From Nitrosopumilus sp. LS_AOA (GTDB lineage: Archaea > Thermoproteota > Nitrososphaeria > Nitrososphaerales > Nitrosopumilaceae): a stretch of DNA of 64,000 bases. The notes beneath the pieces are model-generated. The model was given only the letters and a program-made list of their open reading frames with translations. It searched no databases and was not told where the DNA came from. Below are positions 1 through 12,925 of the stretch, in pieces. How positions within the stretch are numbered: the first letter of the stretch is position 1; the number at the start of each line of letters is the position of its first letter. Position numbers and translations under genes: made by a program. The stretch spans positions 1 through 64,000 of the forward strand of contig LFLC01000038.1 of the NCBI GenBank assembly GCA_001543015.1. Reading direction: 5' to 3'.

Positions 1-3000
1 ATTTTGTAAGTTGTCTCAGAATCAACAAGGTCATTTGATGGGAATATAGATTCACCATTTACAGGAATATCTGAAAGAGGGGTAGAACTATTAACAAAAG
101 TCATATCTATAGTCTTCAAAATACTTTTGTCAAGGTGATGAACATATGCTAATGCAACAGTATCAGAATCTACTTGAACAAGAGAGTTATGAAATGACTT
201 ATTACTATGTATTAAACTAGCAACTTCTTTTATGGTCTTGCCATCAGCAGAGATAGTATATGTTGTGATGGATCCTTTAACGGTATTATCACCAGTATAG
301 GCTAATGCAACAGTGTTAGGGGCTATCTTAATTAGAGAATTATCATTTGCGTAATGTTTATCACTAAATAACAAATTGGCAACTTCTTTTATGGTCTTGC
401 CATCAGCTGATATTGTAAATGTTGTAATGTATCCCATCCAATCAGAACCAAATTTTGTCTGATGTGCCAGTGCAAAAGTATCAGAATCTACCTGAACAAG
501 AGAACCGTAATATGAAGCCACATCAAGATCTAAGCTAGTAACTTCTTTTATGGTCTTGCCATCAGCAGAGATTGTAAATGTTGTGAGATGCCCTAACCAA
601 TCAGAACCAAAACCTGTCTGATATGATAGTACAAAAGTATCAGAATCTACTTGAACAAGAGAGTTATCATATGAGTAACTTGTATCAATGTATTTTAAAC
701 TAGCAACTTCTTTTATGGTCTTGCCATCAGCAGAGATTGTAAATGTTGTGAGGATACCTTCACGGTTACTACCACCATATGCTAATGCATATGTATCAGA
801 GTCTATCTTGATAAAAGAATTATCAGCATTGTAGCGGTCATTATGTTTTAAGCTAGTAACTTCTTTTAGGGTCTTACCATCAGCTGAGATATTATATGTT
901 GTAATGATACCTTCATCAAGAAGTTTACCAGCAGTATACGCTAGTGCAACAGTGTCAGAATCTATCTGAACAAGAGAACCGAAATGTGAAGCCACATCAA
1001 GATCTAAGCTAGTAACTTCTTTTATGGTCTTGCCATCAGCAGGGATTGTAAATGTTGTAAGATGCCCTAACCAGCCACCAGTTGGTATCTGTGTCTGATA
1101 TGCTAATGCAAAAGTGTCAGAATCTACTCGTACAAGAGAGTTATAAAATGATCGTAAAGGATCGTGTTGTAAACGGGTAACTTCTATCAAAGTATTATGA
1201 AATAGAGGAGTTGCAGAAACTGGAGTTGTAAATGCACCTCTGCCTATAGAATTCTCAGCTGCTACTCGAAACTTGTAGGTTACATCATTTTCTAATTTAA
1301 CAATAACAGTACTAGTTACATTACTGATAGTTTTTGGTTCATGGTTTTTCCATTTGGTATCACTGCTTATCTGGTATTGGATTTTGTAATCAGTAATTGG
1401 TGAACCGCCGTTATCAGTAGGGGCAGTCCATGATAGAGAAACCTCAGAGTCACCAGGTGTTAATAATAGACTAGTTGGAGTATCAGGTACTCCAACAGTG
1501 ATTACAACTAGAACAGTTCTTGAAACTTGGGATGCCTTGTTTCCTGATTTATCAGATACATCATATGTAATCGTGTATGTTCCTACAGTACTAGTATCAA
1601 CAGGATTTACTGTAACTATACTACTAGTAATATCGCCATCAATGTTATCACGGGCTGTTGCTCCTGCATCATTATACGTTGAATCTTTATCAATTGTTAT
1701 AGGGTTATTGCCTAATAATGTGATTACAGGTTGAGTCGTATCAACTATTACACCAATTACATTAACGGTAACAGAGTCAACAACACTAGATACAATTCCA
1801 TTATCTACAACAAGTTCAAAGAATAGTAAGAGATCAGTTTGGGTAGTTGGTGCATCAAAAGTTGGTTGTGATGCAGTTAAGCTGCTCAATGAAACTGTAG
1901 AACCAAAAGTCTGAATCCACTTGTATGTTAGTGCTCTGTTTGCAGAATCAAAAGAAGAAGACCCATCAAGTGGAATGTTTGTATCAGCAGATCTTACTGT
2001 AAAATCCAATCCAGCATTGGCAGTTGGGGTGTAATCACTTTGTTGTAACATGTAGATAGACCCAGAGTTTCCTGAAAATTGGGTATCATCAGGAACACCA
2101 ACAAGTATCTTGTTGCCAATAGATGAAACAGACTCTCCAAACTTTTCACCGGTTACAGGGTTTGGGTTTGTGATATATGCAACTAGTGAACCAGTATTGT
2201 CAAACAAAGACACAGACCCTGCAGTAGTATACGTATCATAGCCATCTCGCGGAGTACCTACAACTATGTTACCATCAATTACAGATAGTGATGCGCCAAA
2301 ATTATCACTACTATTTGGATTTGTATTGTTTAGTTGTAATAATTTTTTTCCAGAAGATATGTCATGAACAAATACAGTACCAGCAGATATTCCTGCAGCA
2401 TTATCAAATAATGGAGCACCAATGATTACTGCAGTGTTATTGTAGGGTACTATTGAGCGTCCAAAGTTTGGATAATCATAATCATCGTTGGTTCCAATTG
2501 CTTTAGGATTTACAATCTTTGTAACTTGTTTGCCTGATGTATCATATACATACACAGCACCTACGGGAGCAAATTGTCCAACTAATTTTTCACTCTCAGC
2601 CCCAACTAGTATCTTTGTTCCATCAGGGGTAGCTGAAACTGCATAACCAAACTTTGCACCAGCCTTGTCATGATTAATTGTGTTTAGTAAAACACCTGCA
2701 GTGGAATACACATAGACGCTTCCAGCATTTGATGCAGTGGTATCATCTGATGGTGCACCAACTATCAGTTTGGTATCAGTAAGGAATACAGAGTATCCAA
2801 AGTTATCACCACTACCAGGTACAGGATTGTTTATTGTGTGTAATAATTTTTTTGAATAATCATAAAGGTATACTGCACCAGCATCTTTTGCAAGGGATTC
2901 TTCTTCGTATGCAGATATTGCAATTATACTATCATTTGCAGCAACTGACCATCCAAAGTATTCATTTGGTTTTGGTGTAGGATTATCTATGCTGTGAATT

Positions 3001-6000
3001 TTTGTTCCATCTGTTGCATTTAGAATGTAAATGCCACCAGCTCTGTCAATAGTTGTAGCCAAAATAGTTGGAGTTGTCTCATCAAAAAGATACGAGTATC
3101 CAGTAGAGTTGTTTACTGCAAGGATTAGAGGATCATTATTACTCCCAACTGAATCATTTGATGGAAGTAATTTACTAATGTCATTCCAATTAGGTGTGTT
3201 GACTCCATCATACTTTACTATTCTTGTAATATCAAAGAGTTTCTTACCAGTGTTCTCATCAATTATTTTTGCAGAATCAAGTGATTCAGATATTGTAATT
3301 GTTGGAGAAACAGTTGGAGTTACAGGTGTATTACCTATTGCATCATTTGATATTTCTGGATTAAAAAATGATTCACCATCTGAGCTAAGCTGGGTCACAT
3401 CTTTTTCAGGAGCGCCAACTATGATTACATCATTTGATGTAGTAATAACAGCACTTGTTATTGAATGACCAAACGCTCCCCCATTTGAGACATCAGGATA
3501 GGGGACAAGTGGAAGATTGGGAACTGGACCTATCAATACAGGATTTATGTTTATTCTAACTATAGAGCCTCTACTGTCTACTGTTCCATCATTTACTGTA
3601 AGCTTAAAGTCCAAAAGTGTACTTTGAGACACATCAGATGTAGTAAATGTTGGCTGTGATGTAGTAGTGCTAGATAGTTTCACAGATGGACCCAAAATTT
3701 GTTCCCACTTGTAGGTGATTGTATCGCCATCTGCATCTGAGCTTCCTGTTCCATTAAGTGTTACAGCAGTAAAAACTGGAGGATCAGTTCCATCATGTTC
3801 TACTACTGTTTGGTCAATACCAGCATCAGCTACTGGTGGAGTGTTTTTAGGATCAGGAGGTTTTGGAATATTGTTAATTGTTATTTTGACTAGATCAGGT
3901 TGACTTGATTCTGTTCCATCATGTACGAGTAGCTTGAATACAAAGTTTACAGGACCATTAACTTGCGGTGCAGTAAATTTTGGTTTTGGTGACTTTGAAG
4001 TAAAAAATGGATCTGTTGTAACATCAGGACCAGTTGTCTGAGTCCAAGCATATGTAAGTGAATCACCGTCTGCATCAGAACTGCTAGAGCCACTCAGTGT
4101 TACAAGCGACCCTTCATTGTATGGTGTGTCTGCTCCAGCATGTGCCACTGGTGCAGTGTTTTTAGGAGTACCTACATCTTTTACAGAAACTGATACAGTA
4201 TCAGTTCCACTCTGTAAGATATTATCTTTGACTGTAAGCTGAAATGTTAAAGTTTCAGTTGAAGATACTTTTGGTGCAATAAAGAAAGTTGATTGTGCTT
4301 TTGTTGAACCTCCAGGATATGAAGAGCCAGATAATTGTACAGAAGTTCCAGTAAGCTGTTTCCAAGTGTATCTCAATATGCTTTTTTCAGGATCTGTCCC
4401 AGTACCAGATAATATTACAATGGTATCTTCATCTGCTGTTTTGTCAGTTCCTGCATTGGCAGTTGGTGGTTTATTGGTGCTCGTAGCACCTACTGTAATG
4501 GTTCCCTGCATCCAAGGAGACACCAAGTCAAAATAGTTGTAGGTTCCGGCTTTGATGAATTTATGAGTAAAACCCAATCCTGTACCTATCGGTCCGCTGT
4601 TAAATGTACCATCAGTTCCAGAACTAGGATGACCGCTTGCAATTACAGTTGGACTGGATTTAGAGTTTGTAAAAGTTACAGAATCTCCAGTGCTAATTGA
4701 TAACACACTTGGAACAAAGCAGTTAGAACCACAAGCTGGAGTGCCATAGTTTGATGCCATTGTAACTGTTTTAGTGGCAGTTACCCCTGGTGATGAAGGA
4801 TTAGGAGTAGGAGAGTTTACACCAGGATCATTACTTCCAGAGGAATCAGTAGTTATTGGGGTATCAAGTACAATTATTCCATTTTCAATTAACCAAATCA
4901 ATGCGTTTGCATATGTAACATCATCTACATCTCCAATTACCCACAAATTTGCAACTTGTTTTATCCAAGATTTGATTTTGTTCTCACCCACAGTTACTCG
5001 TTTAGCATCTATGTTAAGATAATTTTCCTTAACCATGTATTTGATGTTGTTAAGATATACATTATCTGTAATTTTATCATCGTGCCACCAACCAGCTAGT
5101 GTTTTTAACCAAGGTGCAATAAAATTTATAAATGAACCATCAATTTCTGCTAAATTTAACTCTGCTTGAATTGATTCCCAAGGCGAATAAATTCGATATT
5201 GTATACTGTTAGGAGGGCAAGTTGGATCTTGTGTATTTGGAGGAATATCAGTAAAACACGTTACTCCTTGATGGAGACCATGAAATTCAACATCATTCTC
5301 ATTAGATATTGAAAATATTGGAGCACCACTGTCACCACCTGTACTAATATAATCAGCTACTACTTGATTTGTAAGAAATCCCCATGTTGGTGAAGTTATT
5401 GTTACGCCAGTAGATAACACCTGACCAGTTGTGTGAGTGACTACAGAATTATTAACAGTTTTGCCTTGTGTTCCACCAAGAATAATATTATCATTAACTT
5501 GGGAATCCCTTGTTCCTATAACATTATACGCTATCCCATTTGGATTGAATATTTTTTGTTCTGAAGAAATTCCATCTACTTCCTCAACAAATGCAGCGTC
5601 ACTAGCTCTTGATGCAGGAGTACCAGAAGAAGATGGATTTGTTATTACACTGCCCACAGTAATAGAGCCAGGAAAATTTTGATGTGGTTGATCTATATTT
5701 ACATTAGTAAGACCACCTGCACCATGTCCAGACATTATAAAACCGTATTTGCCATTATTTGTAATGGCAGGAAGTGTAAGAGAGCTTAGACTAGTTCCAC
5801 GACCTATTTCAATAGATCCCCACAGTGGATCACATCTTTCATCATCAGCATTACAAGCTTCTTCTATAACATATCCACGTTTTAAGACATATGGAATATC
5901 TGAACCAATAATGTCTTCTATCTGTATTGAAAGATCACCAATCTTTTGTGTCGTATCATAATCTATACCAATTATAATCTCATTTTTGTTTGAATCAACA

Positions 6001-6197
6001 AATGTAATAAAAATTGGAAGATCAGGTGTTTGATTAGATATTTGAGAAGAAGATTCGGATTGTTGTATTTCGGAAAGCCAAAATTGTATCAGTGTTTCAT
6101 GTGCATCATACAAGTCTTGGGTTGTTGATTCTTGTGAATATGCAGGAACCACTGAGATTAAAAGTAACAAAGGTAAAAATAGAATTATTTTTTTCAA
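1..6197 (-). CDS. Giant secreted multidomain protein: trypsin-like protease, degenerate cupredoxin, PKD, FG-GAP, FN3, repeats (3' end off window)
   Basis: The frame is open from a TTG at 6197 to the left edge (about 2065 codons), so the ORF track, which needs a stop, missed it. GAGGTAGT precedes the TTG, which overlaps the upstream stop as TTGA. Order (approximate residues): signal peptide 1-21 (KKIILFLPLLLLISVVPAYS); chymotrypsin-fold protease with candidate triad His in SGHGAG (~157), Asp in SDAAF (~199) and Ser in GDSGAP (~288); a cupredoxin-like domain ~476-568; three PKD-like domains ~573-880; FG-GAP beta-propeller repeats ~900-1383; another PKD-like domain; a DUF5011/HYR-like domain; one FN3 domain ~1570-1660; then seven tandem repeats. 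Likely a cell-surface or secreted protein; the substrate is unknown. The C-terminus lies outside the window, so any anchor is unseen. Confidence 0.9.
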   Translation of the reverse strand, partial: MKKIILFLPLLLLISVVPAYSQESTTQDLYDAHETLIQFWLSEIQQSESSSQISNQTPDLPIFITFVDSNKNEIIIGIDYDTTQKIGDLSIQIEDIIGSDIPYVLKRGYVIEEACNADDERCDPLWGSIEIGRGTSLSSLTLPAITNNGKYGFIMSGHGAGGLTNVNIDQPHQNFPGSITVGSVITNPSSSGTPASRASDAAFVEEVDGISSEQKIFNPNGIAYNVIGTRDSQVNDNIILGGTQGKTVNNSVVTHTTGQVLSTGVTITSPTWGFLTNQVVADYISTGGDSGAPIFSISNENDVEFHGLHQGVTCFTDIPPNTQDPTCPPNSIQYRIYSPWESIQAELNLAEIDGSFINFIAPWLKTLAGWWHDDKITDNVYLNNIKYMVKENYLNIDAKRVTVGENKIKSWIKQVANLWVIGDVDDVTYANALIWLIENGIIVLDTPITTDSSGSNDPGVNSPTPNPSSPGVTATKTVTMASNYGTPACGSNCFVPSVLSISTGDSVTFTNSKSSPTVIASGHPSSGTDGTFNSGPIGTGLGFTHKFIKAGTYNYFDLVSPWMQGTITVGATSTNKPPTANAGTDKTADEDTIVILSGTGTDPEKSILRYTWKQLTGTSVQLSGSSYPGGSTKAQSTFFIAPKVSSTETLTFQLTVKDNILQSGTDTVSVSVKDVGTPKNTAPVAHAGADTPYNEGSLVTLSGSSSSDADGDSLTYAWTQTTGPDVTTDPFFTSKSPKPKFTAPQVNGPVNFVFKLLVHDGTESSQPDLVKITINNIPKPPDPKNTPPVADAGIDQTVVEHDGTDPPVFTAVTLNGTGSSDADGDTITYKWEQILGPSVKLSSTTTSQPTFTTSDVSQSTLLDFKLTVNDGTVDSRGSIVRININPVLIGPVPNLPLVPYPDVSNGGAFGHSITSAVITTSNDVIIVGAPEKDVTQLSSDGESFFNPEISNDAIGNTPVTPTVSPTITISESLDSAKIIDENTGKKLFDITRIVKYDGVNTPNWNDISKLLPSNDSVGSNNDPLILAVNNSTGYSYLFDETTPTILATTIDRAGGIYILNATDGTKIHSIDNPTPKPNEYFGWSVAANDSIIAISAYEEESLAKDAGAVYLYDYSKKLLHTINNPVPGSGDNFGYSVFLTDTKLIVGAPSDDTTASNAGSVYVYSTAGVLLNTINHDKAGAKFGYAVSATPDGTKILVGAESEKLVGQFAPVGAVYVYDTSGKQVTKIVNPKAIGTNDDYDYPNFGRSIVPYNNTAVIIGAPLFDNAAGISAGTVFVHDISSGKKLLQLNNTNPNSSDNFGASLSVIDGNIVVGTPRDGYDTYTTAGSVSLFDNTGSLVAYITNPNPVTGEKFGESVSSIGNKILVGVPDDTQFSGNSGSIYMLQQSDYTPTANAGLDFTVRSADTNIPLDGSSSFDSANRALTYKWIQTFGSTVSLSSLTASQPTFDAPTTQTDLLLFFELVVDNGIVSSVVDSVTVNVIGVIVDTTQPVITLLGNNPITIDKDSTYNDAGATARDNIDGDITSSIVTVNPVDTSTVGTYTITYDVSDKSGNKASQVSRTVLVVITVGVPDTPTSLLLTPGDSEVSLSWTAPTDNGGSPITDYKIQYQISSDTKWKNHEPKTISNVTSTVIVKLENDVTYKFRVAAENSIGRGAFTTPVSATPLFHNTLIEVTRLQHDPLRSFYNSLVRVDSDTFALAYQTQIPTGGWLGHLTTFTIPADGKTIKEVTSLDLDVASHFGSLVQIDSDTVALAYTAGKLLDEGIITTYNISADGKTLKEVTSLKHNDRYNADNSFIKIDSDTYALAYGGSNREGILTTFTISADGKTIKEVASLKYIDTSYSYDNSLVQVDSDTFVLSYQTGFGSDWLGHLTTFTISADGKTIKEVTSLDLDVASYYGSLVQVDSDTFALAHQTKFGSDWMGYITTFTISADGKTIKEVANLLFSDKHYANDNSLIKIAPNTVALAYTGDNTVKGSITTYTISADGKTIKEVASLIHSNKSFHNSLVQVDSDTVALAYVHHLDKSILKTIDMTFVNSSTPLSDIPVNGESIFPSNDLVDSETTYK
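100..1200 (-). repeat. Seven tandem ~50-58-residue repeats inside the giant gene
   Basis: Units read NSLVQVDSDTFALAYQT... followed by TTFTISADGKTIKEVTSL. The DNA word acttcttttatggtcttgccatcagc recurs nearly unchanged about every 155-170 bases (near 220, 385, 540, 705, 1015; a variant near 860). The period and hydrophobic pattern suggest beta-propeller blades, and seven units would fit one seven-bladed propeller. High DNA identity points to recent unit duplication. Confidence 0.85.
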
Positions 6198-7195
6198 TTT
6201 ACTACCTCAAAAGTAATTTCATACAGATATGAAACAGAAGTCAAGGATGAGATACAAGAATATTCTGAAATGGCAACTTCTTTCAAACCAATATCAAAAC
6301 TAAATTTAGTCTTCCCCTGGGACCAAAAAAAATCTTTAATTTCTTTATCTGTTTCAGAGTAATTTGTCAGAATTTTATCAGGGTGTCGAATATGTACTGA
6401 TTCTACGCCATCCAGTATTTTAAAAGATGCCTCTTCATTTAATTTGAAAGTAGATATTAAAGAATTTTCTTCGTTACACGTAATAGGATAAAGTAATCCA
6501 TAGTCTTCAATTGAAGAAGATTTGGTTATAATCGAGGTTCTTGGATCATTCCAATCAACAGGATCACGTCCTTGGATATCTTCAATACTATAAGTTTGAT
6601 CATTATTTAAAAATCCTTTAATATTACGATCAAATATCTCATCATTAAAAATAACATTATGAACAAGAAATGGTTTTTCTTGTTGGGTTATTTCTTCAGA
6701 AAAATTGTAAATGACATTATTATTTGCATCTATTTTATAATTCACAAAAACATTTCGTTCAAGATTTGAATTACGATTATCAAGATATTCACGATCTGAA
6801 AGTTCAATAAAAAACGGAGAACCTAAACCATGCCATCCAATTTGAGTATTATCAAATCTATCAATACTGCGTTCATAAATACATACAGGAAAACCAGTCG
6901 ATATATTAAAAAACAAAACTCGGTCTGCATTACATTTTATATCTTGAGGAGTGACACCATCATCGCGTATTTGACGTAGGGGAGCTTTGTATTGTTTATC
7001 TTCCTCTGCAAATATTAATTGGGTTGAGCCTAAAAGCATCACAAATGCAAGTGTAATTCCCAAAAGACTTTTTATTTTTTTGTTTTTTATTTTCTTATCA
7101 CCTCCTTTTTTATTATTTATCATGTTATGAAAATATGATTTAAAGGATACTGTTGATTTGTTTTCAAATTGGTTTTGCAGTTTATCTAACAACAT
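6194..7195 (-). CDS. Secreted protein of unknown function, coupled to the giant protease gene
   Basis: I do not recognise this family. The protein has a Lys-rich n-region, a hydrophobic core (SLLGITLAFVMLLGSTQLIFA) and then a mature region of about 270 residues with no transmembrane segment. The stop TGA overlaps the next gene's TTG start (TTGA), so the two are probably co-translated and may act together outside the cell. The start is uncertain. The ORF track begins at TTG 7201. ATG 7195 sits where a leaderless start would fall below a TTAAGTAAA TATA-like box. ATG 7123 is another option. A perfect Shine-Dalgarno GGAGGTGA (7105-7098) lies 8 bases before an ATA codon (7090) that would begin a textbook signal peptide. 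Confidence 0.75.
   Translation of the reverse strand: MLLDKLQNQFENKSTVSFKSYFHNMINNKKGGDKKIKNKKIKSLLGITLAFVMLLGSTQLIFAEEDKQYKAPLRQIRDDGVTPQDIKCNADRVLFFNISTGFPVCIYERSIDRFDNTQIGWHGLGSPFFIELSDREYLDNRNSNLERNVFVNYKIDANNNVIYNFSEEITQQEKPFLVHNVIFNDEIFDRNIKGFLNNDQTYSIEDIQGRDPVDWNDPRTSIITKSSSIEDYGLLYPITCNEENSLISTFKLNEEASFKILDGVESVHIRHPDKILTNYSETDKEIKDFFWSQGKTKFSFDIGLKEVAISEYSCISSLTSVSYLYEITFEVVN
7098..7105 (-). promoter_or_regulatory. Perfect Shine-Dalgarno inside the annotated 5' end of the 6194-7195 gene
   Basis: GGAGGTGA fully matches the 16S anti-SD core. The only in-frame codon at proper spacing (8 nt) is ATA at 7090-7088. It could drive a non-canonical start that trims the long n-region, or merely encode Gly-Gly-Asp. 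Confidence 0.4.
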
Positions 7196-7360
7196 TATCA
7201 AAACTGATAATTTTTTACTTAAGGAGAACTCATCATAAAACGTATCATGATGAGTTTTAATTAAAAACTAGATGCAAGATATACTTTTTGTCTAACTTGC
7301 TCTCCCCAATCTAATCGCGTAGTTTGTACTTTTCATTAGCAGGTTAGACGTTTTTTTCTA
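7195..7360. promoter_or_regulatory. Upstream control block A (duplicate of 12752-12925) with an inverted repeat
   Basis: This 300-base gap holds a block shared with the region upstream of the S-layer-like gene. Shared parts include the run around cttaaggagaactcatcataaaac and, further out, gtttgtactttt...agcaggttagac. Within it CTCATCAT and ATGATGAG form a perfect 8-bp inverted repeat with a 10-nt spacer (7229-7254), operator-like. On the minus strand TTAAGTAAA lies about 25 nt before ATG 7195, as expected for an archaeal TATA box. Confidence 0.55.
7288..7357 (+). ncRNA. Candidate small structured RNA with closing stem and poly-U end
   Basis: GTCTAACTTGC (7290-7300) pairs with GCAGGTTAGAC (7339-7349) over 10 of 11 positions, followed at once by seven Ts. 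A TATA-like TTTTAATTAAAA (7255-7266) sits about 25-30 nt upstream on the same strand. The pairing, T-run and TATA spacing fit a ~65-nt transcript. The 5' half of the stem is not kept in the duplicate block near 12.85 kb, which weakens the case. Confidence 0.3.
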
Positions 7361-7497: not shown

Positions 7498-8400
7498 CTA
7501 TTTTTCTGCAACTACAATATAACGGACATATTCATCATTCAGAGAATTAAATACAAAAGAGTATTTTGCAGGACTTGCAGTTATGAATGGTGGAATATTT
7601 TCAGGTTCAGAACCAGTCTTAAATTCAAAATAAATCTCATAGTTTTCATCTTCTATCCCATCTAGACAGTCAACATCAAGTGAGATCTCCCACAATACTT
7701 TCTTTGTGTTATAATCTTGAATCTCCATATTATATCCTCTACAAGAATCTCCAAAATCTTTTATTATAATTTTAAAGTCGAACTCTTCTCCTACTTCATT
7801 AAAATACCACAAGTTTTCTGCTCCTATCTTAAATGAATATGGTGGTGTATTGACTATTCTAACTGGGGGTGGTTCACTTATTACAACTGGAAAGTCATCA
7901 GCTCGTCTTTCTTTAAAATCTTTAATTGAATCATAAATTACTTTATGAGAATATCCAAATTTCTCCATTTCACTTCTAATTATTTCTGCAATCTCACCTA
8001 ATGAGAATTTTCCATACTCTACTATTGTAGCTGGTCCATCAACTTCTGCTTCTTCTTCCATCATGTGCTTATATTCACCCAGATCTTCTTCAATTGTTTG
8101 TACAAAAATCTCAGGATGAGATATTAGAAAGTCATACGTTAGTGGAATAATTGGTTCTATCTTTAATTTTTCAACAAGAATCTCCCATCCTAATTTTTGT
8201 GCTGTTGTTTCTTTAACGCAAGCAAACTTGTAATTATCGCGCAATACTTGAACGTGTTCTGAATTATTGCATTCTGGAGCAAGTTCTTGTAATGTAGGAA
8301 GTACTGGTAGAGTAGAGAATCCCAAAGGAATTGATCCTGAAAATAGAATTACTGCAAATATTACAGCTAAAAATGTAAATTTATTTTTGTGATAAATCAT
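7498..8400 (-). CDS. Secreted hypothetical protein coupled to the S-layer-like gene
   Basis: The start is placed at ATG 8400 rather than 8457 because it overlaps the upstream stop as ATGA (8397-8400) and begins a clean signal peptide (KNKFTFLAVIFAVILFSGSIPLGFS). That gives 300 residues. Near the N-terminus VLRDNYKFACVKETTAQKLGW resembles a short motif I know from several thaumarchaeal secreted proteins. The C-terminal half looks beta-rich. Function unknown. Coupling to the preceding gene suggests a shared extracellular role. Confidence 0.8.
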   Translation of the reverse strand: MIYHKNKFTFLAVIFAVILFSGSIPLGFSTLPVLPTLQELAPECNNSEHVQVLRDNYKFACVKETTAQKLGWEILVEKLKIEPIIPLTYDFLISHPEIFVQTIEEDLGEYKHMMEEEAEVDGPATIVEYGKFSLGEIAEIIRSEMEKFGYSHKVIYDSIKDFKERRADDFPVVISEPPPVRIVNTPPYSFKIGAENLWYFNEVGEEFDFKIIIKDFGDSCRGYNMEIQDYNTKKVLWEISLDVDCLDGIEDENYEIYFEFKTGSEPENIPPFITASPAKYSFVFNSLNDEYVRYIVVAEK

Positions 8401-11400
8401 GATGCAGGTGTCATAGATACTGGAGTTGTAGATACCTGAATCAAACCATTCATCCAAGGATGCACCATACAGAAATAATTAATGTCACCAACAGTGTCTG
8501 GATAAAACTCAAAAGAATTTCCAGTCATTAACAATCCAGTATCAAATTCGCCAGTTGGTCCGTCTATAGCTGTTCCTGCCGAAAATGTATGTGCTGCTGA
8601 ATCTGTATTTGAGAATATTATTTTTCCACCAAGATCAACTGTTGCGATTCCTGGAACATAGCATCCGTATTTAATATTCACACAATCATCAGTGGAGCTA
8701 CCAGAACCTGTATCTGGTGTAATTGTAATTGTTTCAGCATTTGGAACTACTGTATTTGTGAATGCTCCTCTACCAATTTCATTAACTGCTGCAACCCTAA
8801 ATTTGTACTGTTCACCATTTGTTAGTCCTGTTATCACAGATGTAATTGAATTTGATTTACCATCAGAGAATGTGGTGAAAGGCAAAGTGGAATTCTTGTA
8901 TCGTATGATATAATCAATAATAGGTGAACCACCATCATCAGTAGGGGCACTCCATGATAAAGTGGCATTAGTGTTACCAACAACTATGAGGTTAGTTGGA
9001 GAGTTTGGAATAGTCATAGTAGGTGTTGCAGTTATTTTATTAACATTACCAGTACCAATCAAATTTTTGGCATATACCTTAAACTGGTATTTTATACCAT
9101 TCTCAAGTCCGGTTATAACAAATGTGGATGATGATGCATTAAGAGTAAATCTAGTGTATGAGTCATCTGTGATCTTTTTGTATCGTATAACATAATCAGT
9201 AATTGGGTAACCACCATCATCAGTAGGGGCACTCCATGATAAAGTAACTTTACCATTGCCCGGTATTGCTAAAAGATTAGTTGGACTCTCAGAAACAGTC
9301 GCATTTAATGAAAAATTTGCAATATTAATAGTATTTCCATATTGAGCAGTTACAGTATACTTTCCAATGGAACTCCAATGATTTCCAGCAGTAATAATTT
9401 GTTCTAAAAATAAACCCATCGCATTTGGATAAATTTCACCTATTTTGACAACATTGTCATAGGGATCTTGAATTAGATATGTTACTGGGAGTTGTAATGA
9501 GTTGAATGTAGAAATGGTTTGTTGTTTACCATTATCAGATCCAACAACAATATTTGTTGAAATACTAGGATGTAAAACAGCTGGATTATCTACGGATTCC
9601 CAGAAAAATGCAGTTGCAGTATAATTACCATTGTGAGTTGGAATCCATGATAATGCTGGAGTAAATGATTGACCACGTGATAATGAACCGGTAATCCATG
9701 TTAGTGAATCCAATACACGGTTATCATCTTGAATCTGTATCAAGTATGCAAATGATTGTTCTTTATCCAGACTATTTACCAAGTCAGTGCTGATTTGTAC
9801 CTGTTGACCAACTTTAACAATATCTAAACTGTTACCAAATGCATTAACGAGTTTCAAGTTAGATGGGGTGAGATTCCAAACAGTATCAATTGTACCAGGC
9901 AATCCAGTACCGTTGAGAGTTATCACATCACGAAGATGTGCATCATTAATTTCAATATTAAGGGTAGTTGGTAAAATTTTAATTCCAGATATTCTTGCTG
10001 CATCACTGACTTCAATGACTTCACCTGATGCATCTCTAAAGTCAACATAGTTGACGTCAATATCATGGCCTGTAGATGATTCAGGAGTTGCTGAATCGGT
10101 TCTACACCAGTTATTTGGAATTTGGAAATCTCCTGTGAATATACCGGTTGTTTGTCCTGTTTCAACTAGAATAAATCCAGTTGCACCAAGTCCAGAATCA
10201 GTTGCTGCTGCACCAGTTGTGGTACAGGATCCTTGGGAGGTTGTCCATCTTATGTCATCAATTGTGACATCTAATAGTCTACCAAGTTGATCACCATTAC
10301 TCAATGCGATAGAGAAACCACCAGAGGTGGCGTTTCCGGTACCAACTGCATCTTGGTTTTGATCTTCAATAGCAGTCACTACTGTATAGAGATCTAAGAG
10401 ATGTGAATCCGTGTTAAGATCCAAATCTTCAAGTGTAATTGTTACAGTATCTGTAATCTCATAGTTACTTTTATCAAATGATACAAAACCAGAATGACTT
10501 GGGGCGTCTTCTTGATCAGTAATCGGTGTGGATATACCATCCGCACCCAAGTCAAGATAAGTAACTCGTGGCGCATCTTCATCAGTTAAATTTTCAATGA
10601 CGATGAAACTTGGGTCATCATCAATAGTATTCAACATTGTATATGTCGTAGGATCCAAAATATTGATCTGATTAATCATTTTGTATTCCAAACTACCTAC
10701 AAAGATTCCTGTGTCATCACCAGTTTCTTCTAACTCAAATCGAATAATTTGATTAGAAATTCTATCACTAGAAGAAATACCATCATTTAGAAACCCAAAG
10801 GAAAAAAAGTCAGTAACTATAGGTAACACAGTATTTGCAAGTATTAGTGATGGACCACCACCAGTATTAATCGTAAAAATATACTGAACCTTTGATGATT
10901 TATTCATTGCAAAAATATCATCACCTGTAGCATTTGCAATATCTACAAGATCCTGTATTCTAGTAATATTACTTGCAAGTCTTGCAGTATTTGTTCCATC
11001 AGTAATGTCTACATCAAAGGAATTGATTGTAACACCCAAACTATTTTGAATGGAACCAATATCAAAATTAAGCAAGTTAAATCCTTTAAAGTTTGGACCA
11101 GGTTGGTTTATTGATTGGTATAAATCTGCAAATGTATTATTTAGTGTTAAAACAAGTGTATCTTTGTTTTGGAAAGAAATATCAGAACTGGTTGTAAGCA
11201 TTGCACGATCACTGAATTTTTGTACTTTAACATTTAATGAACTGCCAGCAAGTTGTGCTGTATTTAATGATTTTAGAGTAAATGGATTTCCAGTTTGCAA
11301 AGAGGGAATCAATTCAACGGTTGGATCATCTAAATCTAGATCCTCATCGACTTTACTGTTCTGGTTGAGATCTTTATCAGTTAAGACTACAGGAATCTCT

Positions 11401-12755
11401 TCACCAGAGTTCCATTCATCATCAATTGGTTGTATGTCAATAGTACCAAAATCAAATCCTACAAGAACTGTAACGGGTGATTCATTGTAATCAATAGTTG
11501 CAGATGTACCTCTTTTGGCATCACTTGTAATTAAGAGAACAGATTCATCGGATTCATCATATGTCCCAAAGATTCCACTGTTTGGTCCCATTTCAGTAAT
11601 TGTAACTGGTTGAGAATTGATACCCAAACCTACTGCAGTGTCAGATGTTGCACACGTTGATGCATCTTGAGGCATACTACAAGTAATTACAGTGTCTAAA
11701 GTATCTCGTATAGTAACAACATTAGTACCAACGCTTTGTTGATCAACATTTAGTATTAAGACACCATTATCTTCAACCATCATATTTGGTAAATTATTAG
11801 AAATATCTATAATTCCATTTGCAACAGCTGCGCCTGCTTCTGCACCATTTTCATCAAAGACTTGATAGTTTGTAGTCAATCCATCTGTAGAGTTTGTTCC
11901 AAACGTCCAAGAATCTTCGTCTGTTGGATCAATGTTTAACCAAAGATCTGTTATTGTAACGTGAACTTGTGCATCATGAGGATATATTGCTCTATCTAAA
12001 TCTGCTCTGACAAATTGATCAACAGTATCAAAAGTTAATGTGGTTGATTGAACACCACCACCTTTGTTATAATCTATGCTAACATTGCCTGTTGGGTTTA
12101 ATTGGTAAAGTTGAATGAAAGGCCAAACATCAGTATCACTAATACCAATTTGACCAATAGAATCACCAGGTAATACAGTATTTGGATCAATTGATTCTCG
12201 AACCACATTCATTGCACCAGTGACACTTTGAGGATCAGCAATGCATTGAGATGTTATGCGAGAACCAGTAGAAGTACCATTTTGACCTAAACCAGGTGCA
12301 CTAATAGGAATTGCAATACCTGCAGTATCAGAAACATCAACACCAATTGTGGTATTTGTATCAGTACCAGGTGCACAAAGTGTACCAAAGTCTAATCCCT
12401 GACCAATTATACCACTAGATGCAGCAGTATAATCTGCAATTGATGCTTGAGTTTTATCTGCAAAGTAACCATACCAGTTACCATCTACACCTTGAACCAT
12501 TCTCAGGATCTTTCCATTTATTGTAACGTCGGGTTCACCTTGTGATTTATCTGTATTGCCAACATAACTATCAATTACAACTACTTCAATGACCTGAGGT
12601 CCGGACATATAGTTATCAAACTGTGAGTTTTCAGCAGATACAAAGAGATTAGCATTGGCTGCATGTGCATAATCAATAAAATTATCTACTGAAAAAAAAG
12701 TGGATGAGAATAATAAAACTAAAGTGAAAACCACAAATGTGTATCTATTAATCAC
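8397..12755 (-). CDS. S-layer-like protein with two FN3 domains and a C-terminal cupredoxin
   Basis: The track starts at ATG 12806, but GTG 12755 gives a compact signal peptide (INRYTFVVFTLVLLFSSTFF...) about 25 nt below TTAAGTAAA, so I prefer it (1452 residues). The first ~1000 residues resemble the thaumarchaeal S-layer protein from its mature N-terminus (NLFVSAENSQFDNY...GPQVIEVVV) and repeated acidic, Thr-rich beta domains. Then follow two FN3 domains (~1155-1345; LSWSAPTDDGG in both) and a cupredoxin with the complete copper set: His in AAHTF and Cys, His, Met in CMVHPWM. It probably forms or decorates the cell envelope and binds copper. Stop overlaps the next start (ATGA). Whether it is the main S-layer subunit or a paralogue cannot be told from this window. 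Confidence 0.85.
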   Translation of the reverse strand: MINRYTFVVFTLVLLFSSTFFSVDNFIDYAHAANANLFVSAENSQFDNYMSGPQVIEVVVIDSYVGNTDKSQGEPDVTINGKILRMVQGVDGNWYGYFADKTQASIADYTAASSGIIGQGLDFGTLCAPGTDTNTTIGVDVSDTAGIAIPISAPGLGQNGTSTGSRITSQCIADPQSVTGAMNVVRESIDPNTVLPGDSIGQIGISDTDVWPFIQLYQLNPTGNVSIDYNKGGGVQSTTLTFDTVDQFVRADLDRAIYPHDAQVHVTITDLWLNIDPTDEDSWTFGTNSTDGLTTNYQVFDENGAEAGAAVANGIIDISNNLPNMMVEDNGVLILNVDQQSVGTNVVTIRDTLDTVITCSMPQDASTCATSDTAVGLGINSQPVTITEMGPNSGIFGTYDESDESVLLITSDAKRGTSATIDYNESPVTVLVGFDFGTIDIQPIDDEWNSGEEIPVVLTDKDLNQNSKVDEDLDLDDPTVELIPSLQTGNPFTLKSLNTAQLAGSSLNVKVQKFSDRAMLTTSSDISFQNKDTLVLTLNNTFADLYQSINQPGPNFKGFNLLNFDIGSIQNSLGVTINSFDVDITDGTNTARLASNITRIQDLVDIANATGDDIFAMNKSSKVQYIFTINTGGGPSLILANTVLPIVTDFFSFGFLNDGISSSDRISNQIIRFELEETGDDTGIFVGSLEYKMINQINILDPTTYTMLNTIDDDPSFIVIENLTDEDAPRVTYLDLGADGISTPITDQEDAPSHSGFVSFDKSNYEITDTVTITLEDLDLNTDSHLLDLYTVVTAIEDQNQDAVGTGNATSGGFSIALSNGDQLGRLLDVTIDDIRWTTSQGSCTTTGAAATDSGLGATGFILVETGQTTGIFTGDFQIPNNWCRTDSATPESSTGHDIDVNYVDFRDASGEVIEVSDAARISGIKILPTTLNIEINDAHLRDVITLNGTGLPGTIDTVWNLTPSNLKLVNAFGNSLDIVKVGQQVQISTDLVNSLDKEQSFAYLIQIQDDNRVLDSLTWITGSLSRGQSFTPALSWIPTHNGNYTATAFFWESVDNPAVLHPSISTNIVVGSDNGKQQTISTFNSLQLPVTYLIQDPYDNVVKIGEIYPNAMGLFLEQIITAGNHWSSIGKYTVTAQYGNTINIANFSLNATVSESPTNLLAIPGNGKVTLSWSAPTDDGGYPITDYVIRYKKITDDSYTRFTLNASSSTFVITGLENGIKYQFKVYAKNLIGTGNVNKITATPTMTIPNSPTNLIVVGNTNATLSWSAPTDDGGSPIIDYIIRYKNSTLPFTTFSDGKSNSITSVITGLTNGEQYKFRVAAVNEIGRGAFTNTVVPNAETITITPDTGSGSSTDDCVNIKYGCYVPGIATVDLGGKIIFSNTDSAAHTFSAGTAIDGPTGEFDTGLLMTGNSFEFYPDTVGDINYFCMVHPWMNGLIQVSTTPVSMTPAS

Positions 12756-12925
12756 TATTATCAAAAACGATAATTGTTTACTTAAGGAAACCTCATCATA
12801 AAACATATCAGGATAAGTTTTACTTTAATAAAAAAATCACAACAAAAATATCAACTACAATTTGTCACAGTGAAAAAATTCTGGTTTGTACTTTATCGTT
12901 GGCAAATTTAGATTATCTAGTGTAG
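12752..12925. promoter_or_regulatory. Upstream control block B, duplicate of 7195-7360
   Basis: It shares with block A the run cttaagga.a.ctcatcataaaac.tatca, the TTATC.AAA.C/TGATAAT segment around the start, and a distal gtttgtacttt...ggcaaatttaga segment. The inverted repeat is degraded here (CTCATCAT against AGGATAAG). The conserved TTAAGTAAA is the likely TATA element for the GTG 12755 start. Common ancestry suggests common regulation of both secreted-protein operons. Confidence 0.5.

Follow-up and report, generated by a model that had tools for sequence, protein, structure and literature searches.

The gene at 8397..12755 (minus strand) of the window, the whole 64,000-nucleotide stretch of Nitrosopumilus sp. 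LS_AOA DNA that we analysed, encodes an S-layer head fused to two FN3 domains and a type-1 cupredoxin. We tentatively read its product, at a little under an even chance, as a minor paralogue derived from the main S-layer protein: a lattice mount that would hold a pseudoperiplasmic type-1 copper protein for electron transfer.

Gene structure and leader element

Read from its first ATG, the open reading frame runs from 12806 to 8397 on the minus strand and encodes 1469 aa; read from the GTG at 12755 it encodes 1452 aa. We prefer the GTG, which a preliminary description of this DNA had also chosen, because a conserved ~75-bp leader element with dyad symmetry (12749..12821, minus strand, an 89% match to the query element), which overlaps the start of the gene, covers the ATG and ends at the GTG. 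Copies of the element at other genes also end at or just before the start codons, which fits this choice. Alignment with main S-layer proteins places a signal peptide at 12660..12755 (minus strand, like all the features of this gene), with cleavage probably after AHA (...AHA|ANANLFVSAENSQFDNYM), as in the relatives of NmSLP, the main S-layer protein of N. maritimus (Nmar_1547, PDB 8c8k-8c8r, PMC11153153). Then follows the S-layer head, about D1-D5 (9987..12659; residues 50-940, equivalent to NmSLP ~37-1010), which was delimited by phmmer, AF2/Foldseek and conserved positions. Where D6-D9 are missing, AF2 and the alignment outline a linker (9876..9983; residues 942-977), predicted to be disordered, with pLDDT below 50 at model residues 912-947. 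The chain continues with the tenth, in NmSLP C-terminal, Ig-like domain (D10; 9537..9875; residues 978-1090), an extra Ig-like domain of the 'YTVTAQYG' type, assigned by reading (9303..9536; residues 1091-1168), a first FN3 domain at about residues 1172-1262 (9021..9293; Pfam PF00041/PF25059), a second at about residues 1267-1356 (8739..9008; PF00041 at 1269-1353) and the type-1 cupredoxin domain (8430..8729; residues 1360-1459; phmmer, alignment, AF2 and Foldseek).

The two FN3 domains had been recognized before, and Pfam recovers both stretches as fn3 (E 1.2e-26); the retained D10, the loss of D6-D9 and the extra Ig-like domain are new to our analysis. The last of these weakly matches an ORF on contig C52 of the same genome (34%, residues 1095-1159). 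Compared with NmSLP, ~600 residues corresponding to about D6-D9 are missing, hence the full ten-domain Ig array is absent; the placement of the cut after D5 is an estimate from the NmSLP lengths in PMC11153153. D10 is retained but lies inside the chain instead of at its C-terminus, and it has drifted. The mature protein is acidic, with a net charge of -110. The start of the downstream gene, which encodes a secreted protein (7498..8400, minus strand), overlaps the stop codon of the fusion gene by ATGA, so the two are probably co-translated; its product showed no Pfam family and a weak match to WING-49.

We found eight copies of the leader element in the genome, none with the reversed-pattern control and no full copy in 40 relatives; on these sequence comparisons the element is species-specific. 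Each copy lies shortly upstream of a gene for a surface protein with a signal peptide, and some copies are in tandem. They precede the fusion gene and the gene at 6194 that leads into a neighbouring giant; on contig C12, two copies precede a 1720-aa FN3 protein and another an NHL-type protein; on C29, copies lie ahead of genes for a protein of 124 aa and an FN3 protein of 1452 aa, and on C31 ahead of one for a surface protein. The second copy in the window is located at 7194-7258. The fold of the leader RNA was not significant (z -1.14).

The neighbouring giant (3-6197, minus strand), whose gene has a 4-bp overlap with the preceding one, is a surface protein with a GDSGAP protease-like motif, PKD, FG-GAP and FN3 domains and a cupredoxin without Cys and His ligands. 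The window's contig and contig C29 (L228) have one coding sequence in common at their starts (VNGESIFPSNDLVDSETTYK), and this repeat interrupts the assembly. A 7210-codon open frame with many FN3 repeats lies on contig C37 (1-27000; L232, L233).

The S-layer head and its relatives

The preliminary description had read the N-terminal ~1000 residues as S-layer-like, and the profile search bore this out: with phmmer against all PDB chains, NmSLP (8c8k and five sister entries) matched over the whole chain at E 4.1e-294. The match consists of three strong pieces, residues 25-519 and 503-940 against NmSLP 12-1010 and residues 958-1088, the D10 part, against NmSLP 1602-1733. When the head and D10 were modelled with AF2 (pLDDT 76), the N. 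maritimus S-layer structures were the top Foldseek matches, and the 418-residue chain of 8c8n superposed on the head model at 3.2 A rmsd with a TM of 0.86. The whole-chain TM of this model is low (0.41), as expected from the uncertain relative placement of its domains; the AF2 models cover the cupredoxin alone and the head to D10, not the whole tail. Taken as a matter of sequence, with AF2 and Foldseek in support, the S-layer relation of the head is proven. Like NmSLP, the fusion has a signal peptide, a D1-D5 head (the structure match shows 57% identity across its initial ~420 residues), a tenth Ig domain and an acidic composition; unlike NmSLP, it lacks D6-D9, carries Ig-like, two FN3 and cupredoxin domains after D10 and has 1452 instead of 1734 residues.

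In the tree, the head falls within the main S-layer clade beside the proteins of two relatives, with a support of 99/93 and an ordinary branch length (0.29). It keeps 95% (148 of 156) of the conserved positions of main S-layer proteins in D1-D3 and 91% (115 of 127) in D4-D5, while in D1-D3 the figures are 75-81% for the second S-layer class and 71-74% for the short class. Because it groups with the main S-layer proteins and keeps these positions, the head is plausibly still lattice-compatible. A recent derivative that the lattice still constrains would show such conservation, but recency by itself could also account for it.

The genome search for the main S-layer gene that the preliminary description had proposed located it separately, at the start of contig C8. 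Its D10 is 95-97% identical to that of the relatives' main S-layer proteins and its downstream neighbours are conserved; the body of the gene is unassembled. Contig C27 breaks off within the tenth Ig domain, as C8 does, and holds a second broken S-layer end. The fusion's D10 matches the C8 end at 69%. With the canonical gene located elsewhere in the genome, the fusion is, as far as sequence tells, an extra, specialised S-layer copy, and the C8 locus, by its 95-97% D10 identity to the relatives and its conserved downstream genes, rules it out as the main S-layer gene. Its origin from a conserved ~1067-aa paralogue of the Nitrosopumilaceae, of which the genome's copy is a 1056-aa protein on contig C35, was ruled out as well: this short paralogue also has a D1-D5 head without D6-D9, but it forms a separate clade (100/100) and lacks D10, FN3 and cupredoxin.

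S-layer heads are joined to other domains in at least two species. In the present genome, a 689-aa protein on contig C14 (L211, 9820-11886) has Calx-beta and RTX calcium repeats attached behind an S-layer head of D1-D3, and an S-layer protein of at least 1910 codons that runs off contig C59 (G000:C59:17000-25662; L011, 2932-8661) has its head regions separated by a repetitive, coiled-coil-like insert of ~550 residues. A congener (G104, contig C7; L198, 1-8286, minus strand) encodes a protein of at least 2762 aa in which an S-layer head is combined with FN3, cadherin-like, NHL and PD40 beta-propeller repeats. Placing the four atypical S-layer proteins on the tree requires at least three label changes. 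A 148-aa secreted protein on contig C25 (L014, 2689-3132) is the tenth S-layer Ig domain alone. Public bins labelled Neomarinimicrobiota and Verrucomicrobia (L018, L019, L029) hold S-layer genes of ammonia-oxidising archaea (AOA), probably through binning errors.

The fusion itself was found in one genome only, and long-term selection is therefore not evident. With a 512-aa query that spans D10 through the C-terminus, neither 250 genomes of the family nor 150 drawn from the order gave a further contiguous match. A public genome scan, which scored the best candidates per genome and could miss rare or divergent fusions, revealed among the matches listed neither S-layer ORFs with a cupredoxin nor cupredoxin ORFs with an S-layer head. 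We found no description of such a fusion in a literature search largely confined to papers outside subscription.

The cupredoxin domain

The complete ligand set previously assigned to the cupredoxin holds: His1406 (8589..8591) and the loop C1446-x2-H1449-x2-M1452 (CMVHPWM; 8451..8471) occupy invariant columns across 27 aligned sequences, giving the full His, Cys, His and Met set. With phmmer, the last 110 residues matched 9cck, the N. maritimus multicopper oxidase with a C-terminal cupredoxin, at 6.5e-9 and 5fc9, the N. maritimus purple cupredoxin (Nmar_1307), at 1.2e-6. The AF2 model (pLDDT 82.5) gave a Foldseek E of 1.4e-8 to 9cck and a TM (target) of 0.87 to 5fc9, along with matches to amicyanins and plastocyanins. 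The closest free-standing relatives, 62-66% identical, are proteins of ~290 aa that have a signal peptide and a PEFG membrane tail. The domain resembles these and other type-1 cupredoxins of AOA (the C-terminal domain of 9cck, 5fc9) in its fold, Cys-His loop and His ligand; the CMVHPWM loop is common to the fusion and its PEFG-tailed relatives, and 5fc9 lacks the Met ligand. It differs from them in that the fusion would be anchored via the S-layer module and not by a C-terminal transmembrane tail. In its own genome, the nearest relative of the domain (62%) lies in a 1007-aa secreted protein on contig C34 (L230, 2125-5145, minus strand) with four intact cupredoxin domains.

Copper binding by the domain is well supported by its predicted fold and ligand set. 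The presence of archaeal AmoA in the genome identifies the host as an ammonia oxidiser, in line with what had been assumed. Between the two roles that had been offered for the domain, copper supply and electron transfer, we favour the latter, since the nearest free cupredoxins are PEFG-tailed and membrane-anchored and AOA plastocyanins are generally presumed to be electron carriers (PMC7785015).

Proposed placement in the coat and competing readings

In the working that we propose, where lattice insertion, orientation, copper occupancy, electron transfer and expression timing are all inferred, the D1-D5 head would insert into the hexagonal lattice or at its gaps, the missing D6-D9 would make room, and the C-terminal arm (D10, Ig-like, FN3, FN3) would hang toward the membrane and hold the one-copper cupredoxin in the pseudoperiplasm. 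There it would carry electrons between copper proteins that take part in ammonia oxidation, and the shared leader element would bring about expression together with other adhesin-like surface proteins, probably within an adhesion-type surface programme. From the centre of the hexamer, the NmSLP chain extends toward the membrane, and its tenth domain is thought to anchor it (PMC11153153); in N. viennensis, crosslinks join an S-layer protein to AMO subunits (PMC10030591). Since the C-terminus of NmSLP faces the membrane (PMC11153153), the cupredoxin should lie on the membrane side of the coat, so that of the copper-binding surface domain first proposed the copper binding stands, while the outward position probably does not. 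Three points count against the mount. Conservation among main S-layer proteins is highest in D6-D9 (383 of ~805 conserved columns), and the lattice may not accept a copy that lacks this part. The D10 that remains has diverged, keeping 63% of its conserved positions vs 97-100% in main S-layer proteins, and, with the fusion seen in a single genome, there is no sign of long-term selection.

The strongest rival is an attachment role, which need not exclude the mount; both may hold. The protein would then serve as an adhesin or as a coat variant of biofilms, an S-layer alternative that cells produce on attachment, with FN3 domains that bind matrix or host and an accessory cupredoxin (e.g. for matrix oxidation or as a structural beta-barrel). 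The leader element, common only to signal-peptide surface genes, including FN3-rich giants and an NHL-repeat protein, and the resemblance of the FN3 tail to the giants (42-47%) point this way. In biofilms, N. maritimus induces an alternative S-layer gene as well as large adhesion proteins, and adhesion proteins occur irregularly across genomes (PMC12448741); the expanded S-layer protein sets of a sponge symbiont have been suggested to serve adhesion (PMC6790972). We nevertheless hold this reading to be rather unlikely: the fusion's cupredoxin keeps all its ligands where that of the neighbouring giant no longer has Cys and His, which suggests selection for copper function, and S-layer proteins have an inward-pointing C-terminus (PMC11153153).

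Intact ligands also speak against a functionless paralogue that arose by recent deletion and fusion and is now being lost, as do 1469 codons open without a stop, a head conserved at 91-95% of constrained sites, and the leader element that the gene carries and its coupling by ATGA to the gene downstream; even with a drifted D10 and an occurrence in a single genome, decay is improbable. Type-1 copper sites bind a single copper tightly and act in electron transfer, and by reading we noted no Met/His-rich motifs of the copper-supply type in the tail. That the domain loads or buffers copper near AMO is thus a shade less probable still, for all that AmoA is present and AOA depend on copper enzymes (PMC7785015). 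An assembly chimera of an S-layer gene with an FN3-cupredoxin gene had to be weighed because S-layer genes break assemblies here, with C8 and C27 ending in the tenth Ig domain. We consider it very improbable: a single frame crosses every junction, the gene contains no near-identical repeat (within D10 the closest DNA match elsewhere in the genome reaches 82%, and the piece of top identity is 34 bp at 94%), its D10 differs from the C8 and C27 copies, and genome contamination is 0.02%.

Beyond the lattice mount, the fusion recalls the multihaem cytochromes of ANME, in which redox and S-layer modules share one chain and which have been proposed to place redox centres at the coat (PMC9012536). The ANME proteins differ in that their S-layer family is unrelated, they use haem and not copper, and they have many centres, not one, and a transmembrane anchor; neither CxxCH haem nor DUF1608-type S-layer families were among the fusion's Pfam matches, and its S-layer part is of the NmSLP type. 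A wider and more doubtful possibility is that AOA reuse truncated, lattice-compatible S-layer heads as a modular display platform, repeatedly recombined with cargo such as type-1 copper redox domains, RTX repeats and beta-propellers, which would set redox centres within the coat on its membrane side. If true, this would be the copper counterpart of the ANME S-layer cytochromes. The S-layer of ammonia-oxidising archaea is a cation sieve that concentrates ammonium. A redox copper domain on an S-layer copy would tie this coat to the electron-transfer or attachment machinery, and the fusion would offer a testable handle on the placement of copper proteins around AMO.
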